Assembly: GCA_029553295.1 (NCBI GenBank)
Contig: JAKPCK010000002.1
Span: forward strand, 1-64,000
DNA from: Deltaproteobacteria bacterium
GTDB lineage: Bacteria > Desulfobacterota > Syntrophorhabdia > Syntrophorhabdales > Syntrophorhabdaceae
Length of the DNA: 64,000 bases
Direction: 5' to 3'
In this document: one piece after another, positions 20,128-56,442 of the stretch
Layout of the letters: each line of letters starts with the position of its first letter
How positions within the stretch are numbered: the stretch's first letter is position 1
Position numbers and translations under genes: made by a program
The notes under the pieces: generated by a model
Databases searched by the model: none
What the model saw: the letters and a program-made list of their open reading frames with translations, nothing else
Told to the model about the DNA's origin: nothing

Positions 20128-21297
20128 TCAGACATATTCAATATCCACGAGCTTTCCCATCTTCTGCAGTTTATCGGAAAACAGCCTGACTATAACCTCC
20201 CTGGGGAATATGCCCATCTGCCTGAATACAAGGCTTTTGTGGGCACGGTTGGTTGCAGTACCTACTATGAAGTTTATTATATCAGATTCATGGAATAGTC
20301 TGGCCAGGTCAGAGACAGAATTGCCTGTGCCGAGTTTATTAATATCCACATCGAGGATGTTGTAAACCTGATTGAGGGTTATTGCCCCCTCTGTTGCATA
20401 GTCGATACCTTCCAGCTCATAAGACGGCGGTCTGTGATAACCCTCAGATATGTCCTTGGCCTTTACAGGGGTTTTAAGGACCCTTGAGACCATCTCGACA
20501 GTGGTAGAGCCACATACGACCTTTGTCCCCTTCATCTCCATAAACCTCCTCACCACCTTCTCGTCGTCGGTCTTTTTTAATGGGGGACCCGTGAGGATAT
20601 TTAGGACATTGGATTCCCTGCATAGAAGAAGAAGGCATGTGGTATCATCGCCGTAATTGGACCATGATATATCCTTTACCTTTTCCAGGATCTTATTGGG
20701 TATATCAACTATACTTACACCCTGGGCAAGGAGTCCGTCTATGTAGTATGAGGCATTCTGGACACCCCATCCCATGCGATACTGGGAGCCCATCCCTGCC
20801 TGGCTTACCCCATCTGATATGAGGATTATGCCGTCGCCGTATTCAAGGGTGCAGTTAACCTCTGCGATAATCTCAAGACCCATGGGTGTAAATCTCTGCT
20901 GGGGCAGATACGTTGCAAAGTGTTTGCTCATTAGTATTGGAGATGGCATCTCATAAGATATGATTGTTGCCTGGCCATTGTTTAAGACCCTGCATACAGT
21001 AAATGCGGCAAAGGGGATGTTTGATGTCCTTGCCTCATGGAGGGTATCTACAACCCTGTTACACGCCTCTCTCAGGGTAAACCCCAGGCGTATAAGCTCC
21101 ATAAGCCTTGATGCATTCATTACAGCAGCTACATGGGCCTTTACACCTGTTCCCATACCGTCTGCCACTATTACTGTTGTTGCCTCTGGCGTCCTGTCAA
21201 TAACTATGTAATCCCCGCAGACCCCCCCTATCTTCTTTGGGGCCTGTGCAGAGACTAACTCAATATATTTCCTTGTCTCATTTAGCTGGGGTTTCAT
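20128..21297 (-). CDS. SpoIIE-type PP2C serine phosphatase linked to the sensory hydrogenase
   Basis: 389 residues. The N-terminal 240 residues form a SpoIIE/PP2C domain: TTVIVADGMGTGVKAH gives the first metal-binding Asp, IILISDGVSQAGM the second, and NYGDDTTCLLL the third. The C-terminal ~140 residues (GTKVVCGSTTVEMVSRVL onward) are a domain seen only with such hydrogenase-linked phosphatases; its role is unknown. It starts 20 bases inside the end of the PAS-containing hydrogenase, so the two are translated together. Known context: group C [FeFe] hydrogenases are often paired with PP2C phosphatases. Inference: the output of an H2/redox sensor acting on a phosphoserine protein. Confidence 0.85.
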   Translation of the reverse strand: MKPQLNETRKYIELVSAQAPKKIGGVCGDYIVIDRTPEATTVIVADGMGTGVKAHVAAVMNASRLMELIRLGFTLREACNRVVDTLHEARTSNIPFAAFTVCRVLNNGQATIISYEMPSPILMSKHFATYLPQQRFTPMGLEIIAEVNCTLEYGDGIILISDGVSQAGMGSQYRMGWGVQNASYYIDGLLAQGVSIVDIPNKILEKVKDISWSNYGDDTTCLLLLCRESNVLNILTGPPLKKTDDEKVVRRFMEMKGTKVVCGSTTVEMVSRVLKTPVKAKDISEGYHRPPSYELEGIDYATEGAITLNQVYNILDVDINKLGTGNSVSDLARLFHESDIINFIVGTATNRAHKSLVFRQMGIFPREVIVRLFSDKLQKMGKLVDIEYV

Positions 21298-23008
21298 CGC
21301 CTTCGGTGAGACTCATCAATTTTCGCACCAGTTCCTCTCCCCTGGCTGTGCTTTCACCGAGAAACTGGGCAATGGTCTGTGCCATTTTTATCTGGTGCTC
21401 CAATAGTTCACTGGCCTGTTCAATGGTCTGTGATTTGATCTCTTTAAGTTTATTCTCGTTTTCCTGCTGGCTTGTTATGTTTATAAATATACCCACAATC
21501 TGTTGATCCTGTTTGAGTATATAGAGAAGTTCCTTGCACATGAGGTTATAGTGCTTGTGTGTCCTTACTATGTCAAGACTATCTGCAGCCCCGGTAATGA
21601 GTTTTTCAAAAGGGGCGGGGTCCATAAGATAGGATATGTGTCTACCCAGGACAGCGTCGGAGCAGAAGAAAAACTTCTTGAAGGCAGGGTTTACAGCGAG
21701 GATATTTAGCTCCTTGTCCAGTATTATAACCCCATTTGGTGTTGTGTTGAATATCTGGTCGGTTCTCCGTTCCGCAAGCCTTCTCATATAAGGTATACAC
21801 ATCTCTGGTTCCGCCATATTCTGCACTACGGCAATGGCTTTTTCACGACAGCTATCATATCCACATGCACCACAGTTTAACTGCTGTTGAGGGTCAGACT
21901 TACCGGTCTTTTCAAAGACCTGTTCTATCTCCTCTTCGGTAACCTCCTTTATTATGCCCTCTTCTCTTCTGTACTCGCCGCAGAAGAGGTTGCCATCTTC
22001 AGGTTGGGGGACAATATGTATATCCTTTGTGTCCTGGTCATATCTTAAAATATCTATCCTTCTGTCAAAGAGGTTTTTTTCTGTCCCCATGCCTGGGCCG
22101 TTGATACAGCCCTGATTGCAAAAAAGGGGTTCTATCAGCGTGTAAGATGACTCCCCTGGGAGACTATCCAGTAACGCCCTTATATTGGCCATGCCATCCA
22201 CCCTGATAAGCTGAGGGTTAAATCCATCGTCATTGAGCCCGGCTGTCTTTATCATTCCCCCAGGAAGAGGGTAGAGCTGTGCCATGTGTGCTGGCTTTTC
22301 ATCAAAATTGCTCTCCTCGCAGTTGGCAAGGCTTATTCCCTTCTGGTTCAACCACATCATAAGTTCCTTGAATGTAAGGACACAGTCAACAGTGCCTTTG
22401 TTTTGAGGCCGGAGGAGCTCTGTCTTCTTTGCCACACAGGGGCCTATAAATATTACCCTTACATCTGGGCCGAGTTTTTCTTTTAGCATCCTTGCATGGG
22501 CTACCATGGGTGAGACAATAGGGATAAGTAGGTCTACAAGCTCTGGTCTGTATTTCTCTATATAATTTACAATGGCAGGGCATGCTGTGCCTATATAGGG
22601 CCTGCTGCCGTCCCTTTTTAGTACCTCCATGGTATGGTAAGAGACCTGATATGCACCGTGGGATGTCTGTCCGATATAACGGAAACCCAGCGCCCTAAGT
22701 GCAGAGGCAAGTCTATCCCTCTGCCATTTACTTAATACCGCTGCAAAAGATGGGGCTATGCTTGCTACTACCTGTTTTCCTGTTTCTATGAGCCTCTGGG
22801 CTACATCGATATCGTGGCGGAATGATTTGGCCTGTTGTGGACACTCCCTTATGCATGTCCCACAGGCGATGCAACGTCTTTCATCTACATATGCCTGTCC
22901 CCTCTCCATCCTTATGGCCTTAACAGGGCAGGCCCTTAGGCACCTGTAACAGTCCCTGCATCGAGCGGTCAGGGTAAATACAATCTGCCTTGTCACAGAA
23001 TCATACAT
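21278..23008 (-). CDS. hydS: Sensory-type (group C) [FeFe]-hydrogenase with PAS domain
   Basis: 576 residues. It begins with two [4Fe-4S] ferredoxin motifs (CRDCYRCLRACP, CIACGTCIRECP). The H-cluster domain follows with altered signatures: TACPAIVNYIEKY (TSCCP in catalytic enzymes), GPCVAKKTE (L2) and FCNQGCINGPG (L3). Next comes an extra cysteine motif (NCGACGYDSCREKA), a PAS domain (about 410-520) and a coiled C-terminus. The proton-transfer cysteine of L1 is alanine, as reported for HydS-type proteins, so fast turnover is not expected. It overlaps hydA by 8 bases (GGAGGT before its ATG) and the phosphatase by 20. Likely a cytosolic H2 or redox sensor. Confidence 0.88.
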   Translation of the reverse strand: MYDSVTRQIVFTLTARCRDCYRCLRACPVKAIRMERGQAYVDERRCIACGTCIRECPQQAKSFRHDIDVAQRLIETGKQVVASIAPSFAAVLSKWQRDRLASALRALGFRYIGQTSHGAYQVSYHTMEVLKRDGSRPYIGTACPAIVNYIEKYRPELVDLLIPIVSPMVAHARMLKEKLGPDVRVIFIGPCVAKKTELLRPQNKGTVDCVLTFKELMMWLNQKGISLANCEESNFDEKPAHMAQLYPLPGGMIKTAGLNDDGFNPQLIRVDGMANIRALLDSLPGESSYTLIEPLFCNQGCINGPGMGTEKNLFDRRIDILRYDQDTKDIHIVPQPEDGNLFCGEYRREEGIIKEVTEEEIEQVFEKTGKSDPQQQLNCGACGYDSCREKAIAVVQNMAEPEMCIPYMRRLAERRTDQIFNTTPNGVIILDKELNILAVNPAFKKFFFCSDAVLGRHISYLMDPAPFEKLITGAADSLDIVRTHKHYNLMCKELLYILKQDQQIVGIFINITSQQENENKLKEIKSQTIEQASELLEHQIKMAQTIAQFLGESTARGEELVRKLMSLTEGDETPAK

Positions 23009-25010
23009 ATACCTCCACCTCTTTCTCTATGGCCTCTGTAGCCTTTTCTATTGTGCACTGTTCTATCACCCTGTCCCCAACCCTTATAACAGGACCCCTG
23101 TCACAGGCCTCAAAACAGAACGAGGCACTCACATTTACCCTATTTTTTAAACCATTTCTGCTTATATAATCAAGGACACCCCTCAAGATTTTTTGAGAAC
23201 CCTTTATAAAACATCCTGTCCCGAAACATACATTTATCTCCAGGCCTTCAGCCTTATCAGAGTAACTGAGATACATATCTTCATCAGTGATCCTCTTCCT
23301 GGATTTATAGTGGGTATGGAGTAGCTCGTGGGCCTTGGGGCTACCCACATCACCGAGAAAGCTATTGTATAGCTCTGAGATATAAGGATTGTCCTGAGAC
23401 TTATGGAGCTCAAGCATCCTGTCGTTTTCATAGAGGCCCTTTGTCCTCTTCTGATGTATAGAGATGTCCGTATATACAGGCTGGCCTGCACCACCAATAC
23501 AACCCCCCGGACATGCCATGACCTCTATGAAATCATATTGACCGTTTCCAGATTTTATATCCTCAAGGACCTTGCGGGCATTTCCGAGACCGCTCACGAT
23601 GGCCATGGAGAACTCTCTACCTGCGAGGGAGAATTTAATCTCCCTTATACCGTTGTCTCCTCGGACACCCTTGAATTCATAGTTCTCCCGCCTTTCTCCT
23701 GTAAGTTTTTCCGTCACATATCTCAATACAGCCTCGCTCACACCACCGGAATTACCGAATATAACACCTGCGCCTGTTTTAAAGCCAAAGGGGAGATTGA
23801 ATGACTCAGGCCCAAGCTCGTTAAAATGGAGCCCTGTCTCCTCAATCATCCTCCCCAGTTCCTGGGTAGTAAGGACATAATCTACATCCCTTATACCATC
23901 TCGGGAGAACTCGGGCCTTCTTGCCTCAAATTTCTTTGCAGTGCAAGGCATAATGGATACAACCACTATATCCTCTATCTTTACACCGAGTTGGACCGAT
24001 AGGATCTCCTTTGCCAGGGCACCAAACATCTGCTGTGGTGAGCGACAGGTGGACAGATTATGGACGAATTCAGGGTAATACTGTTCAATAAATTTGACCC
24101 AGGCAGGACAGCAGGATGTAAACTGGGGGATATTTTCTTTGTTCTGGATACGCCGTATGAACTCATTGCTCTCCTCGATAACAGTGAGGTCAGCAGTAAA
24201 AGACGTATCAAAGACCTTACTAAACCCTATTGCCCTTAAGGCTGCTGCAATCTGACCTGTTGTTATCTTACCGGGTTCAAGGCCAAATATCTCGCCTATG
24301 GCAACCCTTACTGCCGGCGCAATCTGGGCAATAACCACCTTATCTGGATTGTGGATTGCCCTCCATACATCATCCACCTCTGATTTAGGGGTCAATGCCC
24401 CGGTAGGGCATATTCGGGCGCACTGCCCGCAGTTGACGCACTCTACCTTGTCCAGGTCTTTTCCAAAGCTGGGTATCACCACTGTCTGGGCACCCCTGTA
24501 GGCAAAATCAATGGCACCAACGGTCTGAACCTCTGAACATATCCGGACACAGTCACCGCAGAGCACACATTTATTCGGGTCACGAACCAGGGAAGGGGAT
24601 GATTCATCGATAGGGAGGTCTCTGCTCTGATTTTTGAAGCGGATTTTGGTTATACCCAGCCTCCTGGCAAGGGCCTGGAGCTGGCATGTGGCGCTCTTCT
24701 GGCATGTAGGGCAGTTCTGGCTGTGATTGGCAAGGAGCAGTTCCACGATGATCTTCCTCATCTTCCTTATCTCCTCTGTGTTGGTCTTGACCTTCATATT
24801 GGGAGAAGGGGGTGTCGAACATGCAGGGACAAGCCCCATGCCCTCTACATCGACCATACAGAGTCTGCATGCACCGTAGACACTCAGCTCAGAGTGATAA
24901 CAGAATGTGGGCAGGTCCACACCAGCCTTTCTTATAAGCTCCAGGAGGTTTTGCTCCCTTTCAATAGGTATGTCTTTGTTGTCTATTGTGATGAAGGTAT
25001 CTTCGTTCAT
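23001..25010 (-). CDS. hydA: [FeFe]-hydrogenase catalytic subunit (HydA/HndD type)
   Basis: 669 residues. It makes or consumes H2 at the H-cluster in a complex with HydB and HydC. In order: an N-terminal [2Fe-2S] domain (Cys37, 48, 51, 64), the His-ligated cluster (HSQNCPTCQKSATC), two [4Fe-4S] motifs (CVLCGDCVRICSE, CVNCGQCARICP), and the H-cluster motifs TSCCPAWVKF, MPCTAKKFEA and MACPGGCIGGAG. The small-subunit tail follows. The last ~85 residues add a thioredoxin-like [2Fe-2S] domain (CFGTGCFIKGSQ, CFEACDRGP). Maturases HydE, HydF and HydG are not in the window. The start overlaps the hydB stop (ATGA) and has GGAGAG before it. Confidence 0.95.
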   Translation of the reverse strand: MNEDTFITIDNKDIPIEREQNLLELIRKAGVDLPTFCYHSELSVYGACRLCMVDVEGMGLVPACSTPPSPNMKVKTNTEEIRKMRKIIVELLLANHSQNCPTCQKSATCQLQALARRLGITKIRFKNQSRDLPIDESSPSLVRDPNKCVLCGDCVRICSEVQTVGAIDFAYRGAQTVVIPSFGKDLDKVECVNCGQCARICPTGALTPKSEVDDVWRAIHNPDKVVIAQIAPAVRVAIGEIFGLEPGKITTGQIAAALRAIGFSKVFDTSFTADLTVIEESNEFIRRIQNKENIPQFTSCCPAWVKFIEQYYPEFVHNLSTCRSPQQMFGALAKEILSVQLGVKIEDIVVVSIMPCTAKKFEARRPEFSRDGIRDVDYVLTTQELGRMIEETGLHFNELGPESFNLPFGFKTGAGVIFGNSGGVSEAVLRYVTEKLTGERRENYEFKGVRGDNGIREIKFSLAGREFSMAIVSGLGNARKVLEDIKSGNGQYDFIEVMACPGGCIGGAGQPVYTDISIHQKRTKGLYENDRMLELHKSQDNPYISELYNSFLGDVGSPKAHELLHTHYKSRKRITDEDMYLSYSDKAEGLEINVCFGTGCFIKGSQKILRGVLDYISRNGLKNRVNVSASFCFEACDRGPVIRVGDRVIEQCTIEKATEAIEKEVEVYV

Positions 25011-26905
25011 ATCTTCTCTCCTTTTATGGCTTCAAATGCACAACTCTCAATACATGCACCGCATCTAATACAGAGAAGGGGATCTATCCTGTGGGGTTTT
25101 TTCCTCTGGCCTGTTATGGCACCTACAGGACACTTGTTGGCACAGAGGGTGCACCCCTTACACAGTTCCTGGTCGATGGTGAATTTTGTAAGGGCCTTGC
25201 ACTTTCCAGTGGGACAATACTTATACTTCACATGGGCCTCATATTCTTCTCGGAAATTCTTTAGTGTAGACAGCACAGGATTTGGTGCTGTCTTGCCAAG
25301 ACCGCATAGGGAACCCTTCTGCACTGCCACTGCAAGGTCCTCAAGGAGTTCAAGGGTATCCTCCGTTGCCCTTCCCTCCATTATATCGTCGAGGATTGCG
25401 AGCATCTGTTTTGTGCCCTCCCTGCACAGGACGCATTTTCCACATGATTCACTCTGGGTAAACTGCATAAAGAAACGGGCTACACTGACCATACAGGTAT
25501 TCTTGTTCATAATGACAAGACCACCTGACCCTACCATGGCACCCACTTTTTTGAGCGAATCAAAATCAATGGGGAGGTCAAGGTGCTCTGTGGTAAGACA
25601 ACCACCTGAGGGTCCACCGATCTGGGCTGCCTTGAACCCGTCTGACATGGCCTTGCCGTCATCCCCGGTTATCCCGCCTGCAACACCATAGATAATCTCA
25701 CGCAATGTAACACCAAGGGGCATCTCAATGAGCCCTGTATTCAATACATGGCCTGTTATGGCAAATGTCTTTGTCCCCGGTGACGTATCCGTCCCCATCT
25801 GGCGGAATCTCTCTACACCTTCACCTATGATAAGGGGGATTGTGGAAAGGGTCTCTACATTATTGATGATGGTCGGCCTCCCCCATAGTCCGCTTTCAGC
25901 AGGGAAGGGTGGTTTTGGGGATGGCATACCCCTTTTCCCTTCAATGGATGCGATGAGTGCTGTCTCTTCTCCGCATACAAATGCCCCTGCGCCCTCCATA
26001 ACCTGGAGGTTGAATGTATGCTCTGACCCGAGTATGCGTTTTCCAAGGATTCCAAGGTCATAGGCATCCTTTATAGCCTTTCTGATCCTCTTTACTGCCA
26101 GGGGATACTCGGCACGGACATAGACATAGCCTTCATCGGCACCTATGGCCCAGGAGGCAATAATCATCCCCTCTATAACACTATGGGGGTTGCCCTCCAT
26201 AACACCCATGTCCATAAACGCACCGGGGTCACCCTCATCGCCGTTACATATTACGTATTTCTTTTCATTTATCTGTAGCCTTGCAGTATCCCATTTTTTA
26301 CCGGTAGGGAAGCCCCCGCCTCCCCTCCCCCGGATACCTGATTCTGTAATAACCCTGCAGACCTCTTCCGGAGTCATCTCAGAGCAAGCTTTCGCTGCTG
26401 CAAGGTATCCACCTCGGGATATATACTCTCGGATATCCTCCGGGTCTATAAGCCCACAGGTGTTGAGGACGAATCTACACTGTTTCTGATAAAAAGGTAT
26501 GTCTTCCTGTCCTTTGCATACCTTTTGCATATTTGGCTCTATATAGAGGAGTCTGTGGAGTATCTCACCCCTTTTGAGGGTTGTCTCTACAATGTCCTGG
26601 ACATCCCCGGGTTTCACCTTTGTGTATAGAATATTTTCCGGAAGTATTGTCACAAGTGGCCCAATCTGACAGAAACCCTGGCACCCGCTCTTGGATATAA
26701 ATATCCCTTCCTCCTCCTTTTTTAATTCAACAATGGCATTGAGTCCCGAGTCCTGGACAACCCTTATAAATTCATCATAGACCTTCATAGAGCCGTTTAC
26801 CAGACACCCTGTCCCTGCACATACAAGAACCCTGTGGGTCACAGAACCCTCCCATGTATTGAAATCCTTTTTTATCTTTTTAAGCCCCATGAGTGTCCAA
26901 TTCAT
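25007..26905 (-). CDS. hydB: NAD- and FMN-binding hydrogenase subunit (HydB, NuoF-like)
   Basis: 632 residues. It carries the flavin site where NADH or NADPH is oxidised or formed. Domains: an N-terminal thioredoxin-like [2Fe-2S] unit (CAGTGCLVNGSMK, CQGFCQIGP), the NuoF core with GRGGGGFPTGKKW (FMN/NAD) and NGDEGDPGAFMD, the [4Fe-4S] site ESCGKCVLCREGT, and two C-terminal ferredoxin clusters (CKGCTLCANKCP, CIRCGACIESC). ATG 26905 is chosen because AAGGAGG lies 6 bases upstream; this gives a 26-base overlap with hydC. The domain set matches trimeric electron-bifurcating or -confurcating hydrogenases. Confidence 0.94.
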   Translation of the reverse strand: MNWTLMGLKKIKKDFNTWEGSVTHRVLVCAGTGCLVNGSMKVYDEFIRVVQDSGLNAIVELKKEEEGIFISKSGCQGFCQIGPLVTILPENILYTKVKPGDVQDIVETTLKRGEILHRLLYIEPNMQKVCKGQEDIPFYQKQCRFVLNTCGLIDPEDIREYISRGGYLAAAKACSEMTPEEVCRVITESGIRGRGGGGFPTGKKWDTARLQINEKKYVICNGDEGDPGAFMDMGVMEGNPHSVIEGMIIASWAIGADEGYVYVRAEYPLAVKRIRKAIKDAYDLGILGKRILGSEHTFNLQVMEGAGAFVCGEETALIASIEGKRGMPSPKPPFPAESGLWGRPTIINNVETLSTIPLIIGEGVERFRQMGTDTSPGTKTFAITGHVLNTGLIEMPLGVTLREIIYGVAGGITGDDGKAMSDGFKAAQIGGPSGGCLTTEHLDLPIDFDSLKKVGAMVGSGGLVIMNKNTCMVSVARFFMQFTQSESCGKCVLCREGTKQMLAILDDIMEGRATEDTLELLEDLAVAVQKGSLCGLGKTAPNPVLSTLKNFREEYEAHVKYKYCPTGKCKALTKFTIDQELCKGCTLCANKCPVGAITGQRKKPHRIDPLLCIRCGACIESCAFEAIKGEKI

Positions 26906-27389
26906 GATTTTCCTCCTTGCGAATAATATCTTCAATAATCTCCGTTGCCCTCTCCGGGGTAAGCTGTCCGTAGACCTCTTCGTTTATGACCATAGCAGGT
27001 GCAAGGCCGCATGCGCCAAGACAGTTTACTGTCTCGACTGTAAACAGCATATCCTCTGTCGTATCTTTTCCTGGTTGGAGATTGAGTTTTTTATGTATGG
27101 CATTATAGATGTCCATAGAGCGTTTTACATGACAGGCAGTGCCATTGCATACCCTTATGTGATACCTGCCCTTTGGTTTTAATGTAAACAGGGAATAGAA
27201 TGTGGCAACGCCGAATACCCTGGCCGGTGATATGCCCAGGGAGGTGGCTATAAATGTCAGGATCTCTTCAGGCAGATAGCGGTATTCTGCCTGCACAGCC
27301 TGTAGAATGGGTATAAGGCGGGAGGCCTGTCTGTTATTCTGGTCGACAATCTCCAAAACCCTTTCAAATTTCCGCAACTTCTCCATCAT
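26880..27389 (-). CDS. hydC: NuoE-like hydrogenase subunit (HydC/HndA type)
   Basis: 169 residues, a thioredoxin-fold [2Fe-2S] protein. The cluster ligands are in CNGTACHV and CLGACGLAP with the family's usual spacing, and VFGVATFYSLFTLKPKG is a strongly conserved NuoE string. It relays electrons next to HydB. Two adjacent ATG codons are present at the start; GGAGGAG directly precedes the first, so the second (27386) may be preferred. It begins 7 bases after rex ends and overlaps hydB by 26 bases. Confidence 0.93.
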   Translation of the reverse strand: MMEKLRKFERVLEIVDQNNRQASRLIPILQAVQAEYRYLPEEILTFIATSLGISPARVFGVATFYSLFTLKPKGRYHIRVCNGTACHVKRSMDIYNAIHKKLNLQPGKDTTEDMLFTVETVNCLGACGLAPAMVINEEVYGQLTPERATEIIEDIIRKEENHELDTHGA

Positions 27390-27395
27390 CTCCTC

Positions 27396-28067
27396 CTAAT
27401 TTTCAGCCTGTAGCATTATTTTTAATTTCTTTGAAAGCACGACAAGGGATGCAGCAAGGTTCTCATGCTGGATGATAACATCAGGGGGGGTGCTTATCTT
27501 TACATGGGTAAAATTCCATATTGCCCTTATACCTGCATCTGCCATGAGGTCTGCTGTCTCCTGGGCATAAGCTGCAGGGACTGTAAGTATCCCTATCTTG
27601 ATGCCCATTCTTTTCACCATGTCCGGTAGTTTATCCACGTGGAGTATCTTCTTTCCTGCTATCTCGGTGCCCACCTTTTTCTCGTCATTATCAAAGGCAG
27701 CAATAATATTCACACCGTACTCCCGGAAACCATTGTAACCGAGGAGGGCTGAACCGAGGTTGCCTGCACCAACGAGAAATGCATCGGTTATGTTGTTCCA
27801 ACCGAGAAAATCCTCTATCCCCTTAATGAGTTCTGTTACACTATAGCCGAGTTTTGGTCTCCCGGGTATCTCGGTTATCTCGAGGTCCTTTCGCACCTGT
27901 ATGGGTATGATATTCAGATCAGTTCCTATCTGGGTGGCTGAGATAAAATCTATCTTGCCTTCTTTATTGATTTTTTTCAGATATTGATAGTAGACAGGAA
28001 GCCTCCTTAAGGTTGGCTCTGGAATAGGTTTTATTGACTGTGCATTCTTTTTTCCATCATCTGCCAT
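27396..28067 (-). CDS. rex: Redox-sensing transcriptional repressor Rex
   Basis: 223 residues. Rex binds DNA when NAD+ is high and leaves it when NADH binds, de-repressing fermentative and hydrogen genes. The N-terminal winged helix (ISATQIGTDLNIIPIQVRKD) is followed by a Rossmann domain with VGAGNLGSALLGY and the C-terminal domain-swapped helix. It is about 15 residues longer at the N-terminus than typical. ATG 28067 has AGGAGG 8 bases upstream; an earlier in-frame start 18 bases up lacks one. It is the first gene of the hydrogenase operon and has a large palindrome over its own promoter, so autoregulation is likely. Confidence 0.93.
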   Translation of the reverse strand: MADDGKKNAQSIKPIPEPTLRRLPVYYQYLKKINKEGKIDFISATQIGTDLNIIPIQVRKDLEITEIPGRPKLGYSVTELIKGIEDFLGWNNITDAFLVGAGNLGSALLGYNGFREYGVNIIAAFDNDEKKVGTEIAGKKILHVDKLPDMVKRMGIKIGILTVPAAYAQETADLMADAGIRAIWNFTHVKISTPPDVIIQHENLAASLVVLSKKLKIMLQAEN

Positions 28068-28089
28068 GTATTCGCCTCCTGTCATTAAA

Positions 28090-28129
28090 ATATATTTTTA
28101 TCGATAATCGGTTATCGATAAAAATATAT
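28090..28129. promoter_or_regulatory. Perfect palindrome, probable Rex operator
   Basis: Two exact 18-base arms (28090-28107 and 28112-28129) around TCGG. The inner part TCGATAA-N4-TTATCGA has the 7-4-7 geometry of Rex sites, although the usual half-site is TTGTGAA/TTGTTAA. It overlaps the predicted -10 box of the rex-hyd operon and lies 23 bases before the rex ATG. There is no U tract and it is upstream of the gene, so it is not a terminator. Confidence 0.6.
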
Positions 28130-28152
28130 CTAATTACCTCCCTCCCTGTCAA
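28123..28152 (-). promoter_or_regulatory. Predicted promoter of the rex-hydrogenase operon
   Basis: Minus strand TTGACA (28147-28152), 18-base spacer, TATATT (28123-28128). The -10 box lies inside the right arm of the palindrome, so a bound repressor would block polymerase. Confidence 0.6.
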
Positions 28153-28212: not shown

Positions 28213-28241
28213 TTGACAAATATTACATTGTATTCTATCAT
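28213..28241 (+). promoter_or_regulatory. Predicted promoter of the galT-like gene
   Basis: TTGACA (28213-28218), 17-base spacer, TATCAT (28236-28241). The expected transcription start, about 7 bases after the -10 box, falls on or next to the ATG at 28249, so the message may have no leader. Confidence 0.6.
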
Positions 28242-28248
28242 AGATAAA

Positions 28249-29226
28249 ATGGCTGAATTGAGAAAAGACCCTGTTTCCGGCAACTGGTGTGTTGTAGGGT
28301 ATACTATCCTGAAAAGCACTTCTGTTGGAATCTGCCCATTTTGCCCCGGTAATGAGAATCTCACACCGCCAACCATAAAAGACATAAAAAATGAGGACGG
28401 CACATGGGCTGTAAGGTGTTTTCCTGCCTCAAACCCCATATTTATTATAGAGGCAGGGGAAGGCAAAAGGGCAGAGGGGATATATGACAAGATGGGGAAT
28501 GTGGGTGCCCACGAGATTGTTGTGGAGAACCCTGTTCACAGCAAGACCATGTCAAGTTTTACAGAGAACGACTACAGCCTCCTCATAGAACTCTATAAGG
28601 ACAGGATTGCAGACTTAAAAAAGGATAAGCGGTTCAAATACATACTTATATTCAAAAACCACGGTGAGCTTGCCGGTTCATATATCTTTCACCCCCACTC
28701 CCATGTCCTTGCAACACCCATCATACCCCAGAGGATAGAGCTTGAGTTATATCATTCAATGATACATTATCAAAAAAAGGAGCGGTGTCTGTTTTGCGAC
28801 ATTGTATCCCAGGAGATGAGACAGAATAAAAGGATAGTCAGTGTCAATAACAATTTTATAGCCTTCTGTCCTTTTGCATCGAGGTTCCCCTTTGAGGTAT
28901 GGATTATGCCGAGGTCCCACAGTGCCCACTTTGAGAAACTAAGCGGAGAAGATGTAAAGACAGAGTTTATATCAATAATGTCAGGTATTATGAAGAGGAT
29001 CGAGAGATTGACCAATGCCTATTCTATCGTGATACATACCTCCCCTAATGTGCTGACATTTCAAGGTCACTCTGATGACCTGTTGATTGATGATTATTTC
29101 CACTGGCACATAGAGATACTACCAAGATATCTGCGCTCATCAAAATATAAAAGAGAGGATGAATTTTATGTTGTCCCCACCACACCTGAGGAGTCTGCAG
29201 GGATGTTGAGGTCAGAAAGGGTTTAA
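28249..29226 (+). CDS. Galactose-1-phosphate uridylyltransferase-like protein (HIT superfamily)
   Basis: 325 residues. GalT-type enzymes swap UMP or AMP between sugar phosphates through a histidine-linked intermediate. Zinc ligands appear in CPFCPGNE (Cys29, Cys32), the nucleophile region is FHPHSHVLATP, and the second domain carries CLFCDIV and YFHWHIEILPR. The group is often annotated as GalT but may prefer other sugar nucleotides (ADP- or UDP-glucose phosphorylase). ATG 28249 has no ribosome binding site; an earlier TTG at 28213 overlaps the -35 box and is rejected as a start. No other Leloir gene is nearby. Confidence 0.82.
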   Translation: MAELRKDPVSGNWCVVGYTILKSTSVGICPFCPGNENLTPPTIKDIKNEDGTWAVRCFPASNPIFIIEAGEGKRAEGIYDKMGNVGAHEIVVENPVHSKTMSSFTENDYSLLIELYKDRIADLKKDKRFKYILIFKNHGELAGSYIFHPHSHVLATPIIPQRIELELYHSMIHYQKKERCLFCDIVSQEMRQNKRIVSVNNNFIAFCPFASRFPFEVWIMPRSHSAHFEKLSGEDVKTEFISIMSGIMKRIERLTNAYSIVIHTSPNVLTFQGHSDDLLIDDYFHWHIEILPRYLRSSKYKREDEFYVVPTTPEESAGMLRSERV

Positions 29227-55201: not shown

Positions 55202-56395
55202 GTGACAAGATATTTAGTAATATTTTTCACTGCCCTTTTCTTTCATGTTTTAAGCTATATTATCCTGTTAAAAAGAATAGAGCCCCTTTATTTTCATTTC
55301 TATACCTTTGTATGGTGGTCTTTTATTGTCCTTATGGATGTAATCTATGCCATAAGGAAAGGTCGTTTTTTGATATTAAAAAGGACACTACCTGCCATGA
55401 TAGTTATATCTGCCAGTTTCTGGTGTATATTTGAATTGATAAACCTGAGAATACAGAACTGGTACTACATAAATCTCCCTATGGAATATTATCATAGGTA
55501 TACAGGATACCTGTTGGCTTACGGCACAGTGGTCCCTGGTATATATATCACAAAGGAGATAATCCAGGACCTGATAGGGGATATAGAGATAAAAAAGATA
55601 CATCTCAATAGATACCCTTTTTATGCAATAATAACAGGTTTTGCATTGCTTTTTTTAACCCTTGCGGTGCCTAAATATTTTTTCAGCCTTGCATGGGTAT
55701 CTGCTGGCCTTATATTCGACGGATACAACTATTATAGAGGCTATAGCTCCTTTGCCAGGGATCTAGAGGCCGGCCAAATAAGAGGTATCATAGCTACAAT
55801 GCTTTCTGGTCTTTTATGCGGCATCCTTTGGGAATTCTGGAATTTCTGGGCTGTAACCAAATGGATTTATACTGTCCCGTTTTTTGAAGGGATGAAGATC
55901 TTTGAGATGCCTGTCCCGGGGTATATAGGTTTTGTTGTCTTTGCACTTGAGACCATTGCCTTTGTAAACCTCATAAAAGGTATATGGTCAACCAAGACAA
56001 GGGCCTTAACTGTAACCTTTATTATGGCATGTTTCTGTGCTATTTCCTTCGTATTAATCGATAGATACACTGTATTTTCCCATATAGCCAGGATAGAAGA
56101 ACTCTACTTTATATCCCAGGATAAAAGAGAGGCATTAAAACAAGAGGGTATAAGGACGAGCTACAGGATTGATATAAAAACCCTTGACAGCAAAGAAAGG
56201 GATTTTATGGAGTTATTACACCTCAAGGGCATGGGTCTTATTAACCTAAAAAAGCTTGCACAATACGGGATAGATAATATAGATGCCCTGTCTAAAATGG
56301 ATGACAAGACCCTATCAATCATACTGGAGGAGAATAATATGAGGAGGGTCAGGGTCTATATTTCAGCAGCAAAGGAGGGTTTATCTAAAAAATAA
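55202..56395 (+). CDS. Polytopic membrane protein with C-terminal helix-hairpin-helix (DUF4332-like)
   Basis: 397 residues. About nine hydrophobic segments cover residues 1-295, including WEFWNFWAVTKWIY and several Trp/Tyr-rich strings. The last ~75 residues are soluble and read LLHLKGMGLINLKKLAQYG then IDALSKMDD, a double helix-hairpin-helix of the DUF4332 sort, normally a nucleic-acid-binding or protein-contact module. GTG start 3 bases after the upstream stop. No function is assigned. Ends at a strong bidirectional terminator. Confidence 0.6.
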   Translation: MTRYLVIFFTALFFHVLSYIILLKRIEPLYFHFYTFVWWSFIVLMDVIYAIRKGRFLILKRTLPAMIVISASFWCIFELINLRIQNWYYINLPMEYYHRYTGYLLAYGTVVPGIYITKEIIQDLIGDIEIKKIHLNRYPFYAIITGFALLFLTLAVPKYFFSLAWVSAGLIFDGYNYYRGYSSFARDLEAGQIRGIIATMLSGLLCGILWEFWNFWAVTKWIYTVPFFEGMKIFEMPVPGYIGFVVFALETIAFVNLIKGIWSTKTRALTVTFIMACFCAISFVLIDRYTVFSHIARIEELYFISQDKREALKQEGIRTSYRIDIKTLDSKERDFMELLHLKGMGLINLKKLAQYGIDNIDALSKMDDKTLSIILEENNMRRVRVYISAAKEGLSKK

Positions 56396-56423
56396 AAACG
56401 CCCCTTGAAAAAGGGGCGTTTTT
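56394..56423. terminator. Bidirectional rho-independent terminator
   Basis: Arms AAAAACGCCCCTT (56394-56406) and AAGGGGCGTTTTT (56411-56423) around GAAA. U tracts on both strands serve the 55.2 kb gene (plus) and hppA (minus). Confidence 0.92.
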
Positions 56424-56442
56424 ATTTCATCAGAGATATTTT

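Follow-up and report, generated by a model that had tools for sequence, protein, structure and literature searches.

A row of overlapping operators covers the -10 box and the probable start site of the rex-hydrogenase operon. Based on its sequence, we consider it very probable that this row is a tandem operator array for Rex1, a Rex paralogue of shifted specificity that autoregulates the rex-hydrogenase operon. Binding by Rex1, its response to NADH, the occupancy of more than one operator and the direction of control are what we infer from the arrangement. In the window, by which we mean the whole stretch of 64,000 nucleotides analysed, the elements of the promoter are as follows.

28147..28152, minus strand: -35 box TTGACA of the rex-hydrogenase promoter (consensus scan, 11/12 together with the -10 box)
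28123..28128, minus strand: -10 box TATATT, within operator O1 (consensus scan, spacer of 18 to the -35 box)
28115..28132, minus strand: operator O1, TAGATATATTTTTATCGA (one mismatch to TCGATA-N6-TATCGA; conserved in orthologues)
28101..28118, minus strand: operator O2, TCGATAACCGATTATCGA, centre of the palindrome (exact TCGATA-N6-TATCGA)
28087..28104, minus strand: operator O3, TCGATAAAAATATATTTT, right half degenerate (7/8 core positions)

Read along the rex strand, TTGACA is followed by 18 bases and TATATT, and the operator rhythm starts over the -10 box with the sequence TAGATA-TATTTT-TATCGATA-ACCGAT-TATCGATA-AAAATA-TATT. Each GATA-N6-TATC is an 18-bp operator of Rex geometry (TCGATAA-N4-TTATCGA). 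Three of them stand in the window, one every 14 bp, and neighbours share the self-complementary word TCGA. Transcription of the operon would be expected to start near 28116.

The inverted repeat at the rex promoter

Positions 28090 to 28129 form a 40-base inverted repeat whose arms (28090-28107 and 28112-28129, 18 bases each) are 100% complementary. The initial annotation described it as a perfect 40-base palindrome with exactly matching 18-base arms. This is right for the arms, but the four-base loop TCGG leaves 38/40 positions of the repeat self-complementary. The annotation was also correct that the repeat overlaps the -10 box of the rex operon (TATATT, minus strand, 28128-28123) and that the inner TCGATAA-N4-TTATCGA has Rex geometry, with two half-sites around N4 in an 18-bp palindrome. 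The usual half-site TTGTGAA or TTGTTAA is missing from the row as it had stated, the half-site of O2 being TCGATAA. Arms of 18 bases are far beyond chance: the longest perfect arm was 11 in dinucleotide shuffles of the whole window (n = 40; loop up to 10) and 13, reached once, in shuffles of the local 500 bp (n = 1000). A second long perfect inverted repeat in the window, at 56390-56427 (arms 17, loop 4), has a GC-rich core with A and T runs on its flanks, lies between converging genes and is an ordinary intrinsic terminator.

The unit TTATCGATAA is present twice, 14 bp apart, and flanking half-units keep the 14-bp rhythm. The palindrome arises because this unit is self-complementary; it is the middle of the overlapping operator row and not one oversized site. 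The suggestion that a second regulator reads the outer arms is not supported, as these repeat the same operator in register. A genome of the same genus, G002, has arms identical to those of the window and a different loop, which points to selection on the arms.

The rex-hydrogenase operon

The operon reads away from the array on the minus strand, and one gene diverges on the other side.

27396..28067, minus strand: rex (Rex1), 223 aa (NCBIfam NF003994 Rex, 291.7 bits, cut-off 130; Pfam PF06971 and PF02629 above cut-off)
26880..27389, minus strand: NuoE-like 2Fe-2S hydrogenase subunit, HydC type (PF01257)
25007..26935, minus strand: NuoF-like flavoprotein subunit, HydB type (PF01512, PF10589)
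23001..25010, minus strand: [FeFe] hydrogenase catalytic subunit, HydA type, group A6 NADH-dependent (NF040763, 781.6 bits, cut-off 765)
28252..29226, plus strand: divergent GalT/HIT-like nucleotidyltransferase gene (PF01087 and PF02744 for 28213-29226)

The start codon of rex is probably the ATG at 28067 and not that at 28085, because AGGAGG (28080-28075) stands seven bases before the former, whereas the in-frame upstream ATG has no such site. We found no evidence that the array controls the divergent gene at 28252..29226. Just downstream of the catalytic subunit, 21278-23008 encodes a 576-aa [FeFe]-hydrogenase-like protein that scores below the group A and B cut-offs and is probably a sensor-type hydrogenase homologue. 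At three other rex loci (L095, L102, L104) the gene between rex and nuoE matches this protein better than hydA.

Conservation among family genomes

Close orthologues of rex1 (64-80% identity) were found in 20 of the 60 relatives searched; in the remaining 40 the best match is a Rex of no more than 45% identity, or there is none. The operator row stands upstream of rex1 in 21/21 cases, that is, in the window and in all 20 relatives that bear the orthologue. When 39 family genomes were searched with a two-operator pattern, a place with 0 mismatch was found at the rex1 promoter in 21/21 rex1 genomes and in G061, which is counted separately and whose rex1 was seen directly. Among the other 17 genomes, 16 of which (all but G060) had been searched for rex1 and gave a Rex2-level match only, 0-mismatch places occur only in G010 and G025. 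The first is an isolated intergenic palindrome and the second lies inside a coding frame; both are unrelated. The G010 element (G010:C63:4912-4939, L162) is a perfect palindrome, GATACTCGATTATCGATAATCGAGTATC, in a genome without rex1, and the genus of G010 has many single-operator-like matches.

Then, does the array have further targets in its own genome? The sole exact copy of TCGATAA-N4-TTATCGA in the 2.25-Mb draft genome is the one inside the repeat, and with up to 2 mismatches the motif occurs at 7 places genome-wide, equal to the count of a reversed-pattern control. Near matches in the same genome (L002, L003, L004) all lie within open frames. In the single-operator search of the 39 family genomes with one mismatch, counts among the matches listed are close to the control in many genomes and exceed it in some, e.g. 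40 versus 16 in G019. Neither the single-operator search nor the near-match search supports other targets of the array in the window's genome. The initial annotation had named a core found nowhere else near redox genes as one of two joint grounds, with failure of Rex to bind in vitro, for rejecting its reading. Within this genome the core is indeed absent near other redox genes, but a shifted Rex is not thereby refuted, since the array acts like a local operator with one target. The latter is suggested by a stricter pattern run on 19 distant genomes: 9/19 match, every match falls, judged by its sequence, at a rex promoter, and the reversed-pattern control gave 0 in all 19.

Conservation at distant rex loci

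One scan of genome contigs, with an orthologue alignment, kept 80 of 153 loci: 56 of Rex1 type, 23 of Bacteroidales and one of Lentisphaerae (L116). The Rex1-type loci come from Syntrophorhabdales and other Deltaproteobacteria-labelled MAGs, Omnitrophota, Firestonebacteria, FCPU426, Hydrogenedentota, Nitrospirota, Elusimicrobiota, Riflebacteria, Bacillota-labelled MAGs, Desulfobulbus, a Spirochaetaceae MAG, Hinthialibacteria, Ignavibacteria and Kapaibacteria. The family genomes include the assemblies of about 17 of these 56 loci, so that the two counts overlap. An array score of at least 13/16 was reached upstream of rex at 51/56 Rex1-type loci and in the window (52/57, about ten phyla), with a degenerate pattern derived from the same loci that it later scored and in related lineages, whose counts are not independent events. 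For 46/57 Rex1 loci, 0/200 shuffles of the 400 bp upstream reach the array score. The rumen Elusimicrobia have one clear operator with scores of 13-14, near chance (up to 3/200 shuffles reach them), and L116, which scores 13 far from rex, was not counted as an array.

The array also goes with the hydrogenase. A gene for a NuoE-type hydrogenase subunit lies downstream of rex at 51/56 loci, and the array is present at 50 of them. Of the five loci without the NuoE gene, four (L094, L099, L103, L109) have a Pro-Lys wing in Rex, described below, and neither array nor hydrogenase genes. The fifth, L083, has the array. The one other Rex1 locus below the array score, L078, combines a Pro-Lys wing and a hydrogenase with a score of only 11, and a weak two-unit row is visible there by eye. 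At L083:4001-7302, in a Bacillota-labelled MAG, the array and rex stand directly upstream of adhE, with no hydrogenase genes; adhE is a classical Rex target.

Period, frame and size of the array

The 14-bp period is sharply defined. With L110 and the other Bacteroidales set aside, 43/62 upstream regions reach 15/16 at this period; the other periods between 8 and 23 give 0, apart from period 12 with 1. The gap spectrum of the single operator (TCGAKA against TMTCGA) in the same set has exact matches at gap 6 in 30/62 regions and otherwise none at gaps 0 to 15. A gap of 6 here corresponds to N4 between the 7-base half-sites. A Fur-type site is GATA-N5-TATC, and sites of this type were rejected on the same spectrum, which has no exact match at gap 5. 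Most arrays end in half-units. This agrees with TCGATA-N6-TATCGA as the frame, an arrangement with the geometry of a site for one Rex dimer, and it was the ground for rejecting a dimer with TTATCGATAA itself at its centre. The ends continue with T[AC] in 11/52 arrays on the left and 21/52 on the right. Among the 52 arrays, 12 have one operator (L100, from Desulfobulbus elongatus, being counted as one only), 13 have two, 24 have three and 3 have four. Other species keep the 14-bp rhythm although their arrays do not form one large palindrome. In 39/57 arrays listed the -10 hexamer starts two bases after the start of an operator GATA core, usually with a spacer of 17 bases to the -35 box; this register is descriptive, since the promoters were chosen by score within the same region. 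TCGAGA largely replaces TCGATA as the half-site at the loci of Nitrospirota, Hydrogenedentota, Spirochaetaceae and Desulfobulbus.

Rex1 residues and operator bases

Rex1 is a member of the Rex family. Besides the NF003994 score, its sequence matched eight distinct PDB sequences, all Rex (best E 2.7e-44), and it has the winged-helix N-terminal domain (PF06971) and the Rossmann domain (PF02629) with the GxGxxG motif as GAGNLG at 106-111. The 39 best PDB matches of a model predicted from a 21-row alignment (mean pLDDT 71.9, pTM 0.55) are all Rex chains; confidence of the model is low at the wing, with residues 65-76 below 50. In a tree rooted at the midpoint only, the Rex1 clade (79 rows including Bacteroidales) and 16 canonical Rex fall on opposite sides of a branch with support 100/100.

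In the T. maritima Rex complex, as given in PMC8836258, Arg48 reads G5 and Lys49 reads G7/A8 in the major groove, Arg60 and Gly61 touch T4 and T3 in the minor groove, and Arg60 is among the contact residues that are not highly conserved. The four positions align with R65, K66, P77 and K78 of Rex1. K66 is invariant and R65 is present in 20/21 family orthologues, so the readers of G5 and G7/A8 are kept. The wing Arg-Gly is replaced by P77-K78 in 21/21 family orthologues; as Arg60 is not highly conserved, this marks a variant and does not exclude Rex1 from the family. Across the wider set, 55/57 Rex1 rows have the Pro-Lys wing (54 by alignment and L071 by hand, with Arg65 kept), and the arrays without the full Pro-Lys are those of L083 (Ser-Lys) and L111 (Ala-Lys).

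The operator follows the same division: G5 and A8 are kept and T4 is lost. Position 4 of the outermost half-sites is left free by the search pattern; it is T in 1/52 on the left and 6/52 on the right, against a background T of 0.29. Base 7 goes with residue 62 of Rex1. With Ile62 (40 loci) it is T in 189/190 half-sites and G in 1; with Thr62 (8 loci) it is G in 21/34 and T in 13; with Pro62 (4 loci) it is G in 6/20 and T in 14. The proposal that the specificity of Rex has shifted is well supported, as the non-canonical half-site is kept at orthologous rex promoters of about ten phyla and goes with replacement of the wing residues that correspond to Arg60 and Gly61 of T. maritima Rex. The sensing side may have changed as well. 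According to PMC8836258, the sensing Tyr of helix 5 in T. maritima Rex pairs with an Asp in the last helix (helix 9). This Tyr is kept as Tyr117 in the window's Rex1 and is Phe in one family genus, and Asp191 aligns with Asn209; the NADH response of Rex1 may for these reasons differ from that of T. maritima Rex.

Comparison with canonical Rex, Rex2 and Bacteroidales Rex

The consensus of the canonical Rex operator, as quoted in PMC6391272, is TTGTGAA-N4-TTCACAA. The row shares with it the 18-bp palindrome, 7-base half-sites four bases apart, the overlap with the promoter, G5 and A8. It differs in having C or A for T4, A at position 6 and mostly T at position 7, and in its tandem overlap with a 14-bp period and shared TCGA.

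The window's genome has a second rex, Rex2 (G000:C156:77227-77802), which is canonical and a Rex by homology. Like Rex1 it belongs to the Rex family, has the Arg/Lys of the recognition helix and has N4 spacing in its presumed site; unlike Rex1 it has an Arg-Gly wing and a TTG(T/A)(T/G)AA site without an array. Upstream regions of Rex2 carry a TTG(A/T)(T/G)AA-N4-TT-type site in 19/19 that were long enough to test (L040 was dropped, its upstream being too short). Position 4 is T in 19/19; this is consistent with the Arg-Gly wing, but the search pattern demands a T there. The array is absent in all 19 tested (4 or more of 200 shuffles reach each score). The Rex2 promoters (L035-L054) have a strongly conserved element patterned as TTGTTAAATTTTTCTCTTGC, of which L035 and L036 each have two copies. 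Its right half differs from the half-site of canonical Rex.

Bacteroidales Rex lies in the same clade as Rex1 against canonical Rex in the tree, but no array stands out at its 23 loci (41 or more of 200 shuffles reach the scores). It differs from Rex1 (L110, L112-L115, L117-L134) in having Ala, Val or Thr for the Arg that reads G5 and a wing that is mostly Thr-Arg. Since both this Arg and the array are lacking, the operator of Bacteroidales Rex must differ again.

Alternative explanations

Rex1 could bind and yet never fill neighbouring operators together, so that either O2 or the pair of O1 and O3 is occupied and the sites are mutually exclusive; we give this a substantial chance, somewhat short of even. 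Neighbours overlap by four base pairs and, judged by the T. maritima contacts, would both need the central CG step; O1 and O3 are clear of each other, and a single operator is enough in some species. Alternative sites, however, need no fixed spacing, whereas the 14-bp spacing is strict over about ten phyla, and the arrays of three or four operators (27/52) suggest that neighbours matter to each other.

That a regulator other than Rex1 reads the array, with Rex1 merely the adjacent gene, is unlikely. The half-site is unlike every canonical Rex site compared here and it is sequence that links Rex1 to the array; but the array accompanies rex1 across about ten phyla and occurs neither at the second rex nor at Bacteroidales rex, the spacing and the kept G5 and A8 fit Rex contacts, and residue 62 goes with base 7. 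Still less probable is binding of the palindrome by canonical Rex2, a Rex family member by homology that this genome also encodes: its own upstream regions carry the other type of site and none has an array, arrays follow Rex1, and the 16 family genomes with Rex2 only yield just two 0-mismatch places, both unrelated. We give almost no credence to an RNA hairpin, a terminator, a cruciform or a chance palindrome. The repeat is long, AT-rich and intergenic, but it holds no terminator-like site, its transcript would not hold both arms since the expected start site lies inside the repeat, other species keep the 14-bp rhythm without one large palindrome, and shuffles exclude chance.

Proposed mechanism

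Under the favoured reading of a tandem array for Rex1, the half-site would have changed from TTGTGAA to T(C/A)GATA(A). Because its outer word TCGA is self-complementary, it would serve two neighbouring operators, and 18-bp operators would tile every 14 bp; the canonical TTGT lacks this self-complementarity, so such sharing would be closed to canonical operators. Within a shared TCGA, one G would be read by one dimer and the other G by its neighbour. A step of 14 bp is 1.33 turns of B-DNA, and by this geometry successive dimers would be turned by about 120 degrees. The sharing of TCGA may be simultaneous, in a filament, or alternate; two dimers on one TCGA could be sterically impossible, with alternate occupancy instead. 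Operators of DtxR/IdeR and Zur hold two overlapping dimers. They resemble the row in that several winged-helix repressor dimers sit on overlapping operators at different angles around the DNA, but the proteins and signals are unrelated, and the row here has up to four operators at a fixed 14-bp step.

At a low NADH/NAD+ ratio, NAD+-bound Rex1 dimers would occupy the row over the -10 box and the start site and repress both rex and, downstream of it, the NADH-dependent [FeFe] hydrogenase. A rise in NADH would free the row of Rex1 and permit synthesis of the hydrogenase, and surplus NADH would be oxidised as H2 is given off. With several operators, the autoregulated switch may be steeper or tighter. 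We propose only tentatively, and with rather more doubt than belief, that a branch of Rex swapped the wing residues facing bases 3 and 4 and took TCGA as its outer word, and that Rex1 dimers, placed next to each other on interlocking operators, form a short filament over the hydrogenase promoter, its length of one to four operators setting how steep the NADH switch is.

Significance

In the literature searched, mostly outside subscription journals, we found no description of overlapping Rex operators or of a TCGATA site. The system offers a testable case of a repressor family changing its DNA word, with two residues, two bases and a canonical paralogue in the same cell as control. The main control site of NADH-dependent [FeFe] hydrogenases would escape motif searches with the matrix of canonical Rex in Syntrophorhabdales, Omnitrophota, Elusimicrobiota, Ignavibacteriota and other groups, H2-producing anaerobes in which redox control decides the output of fermentation.
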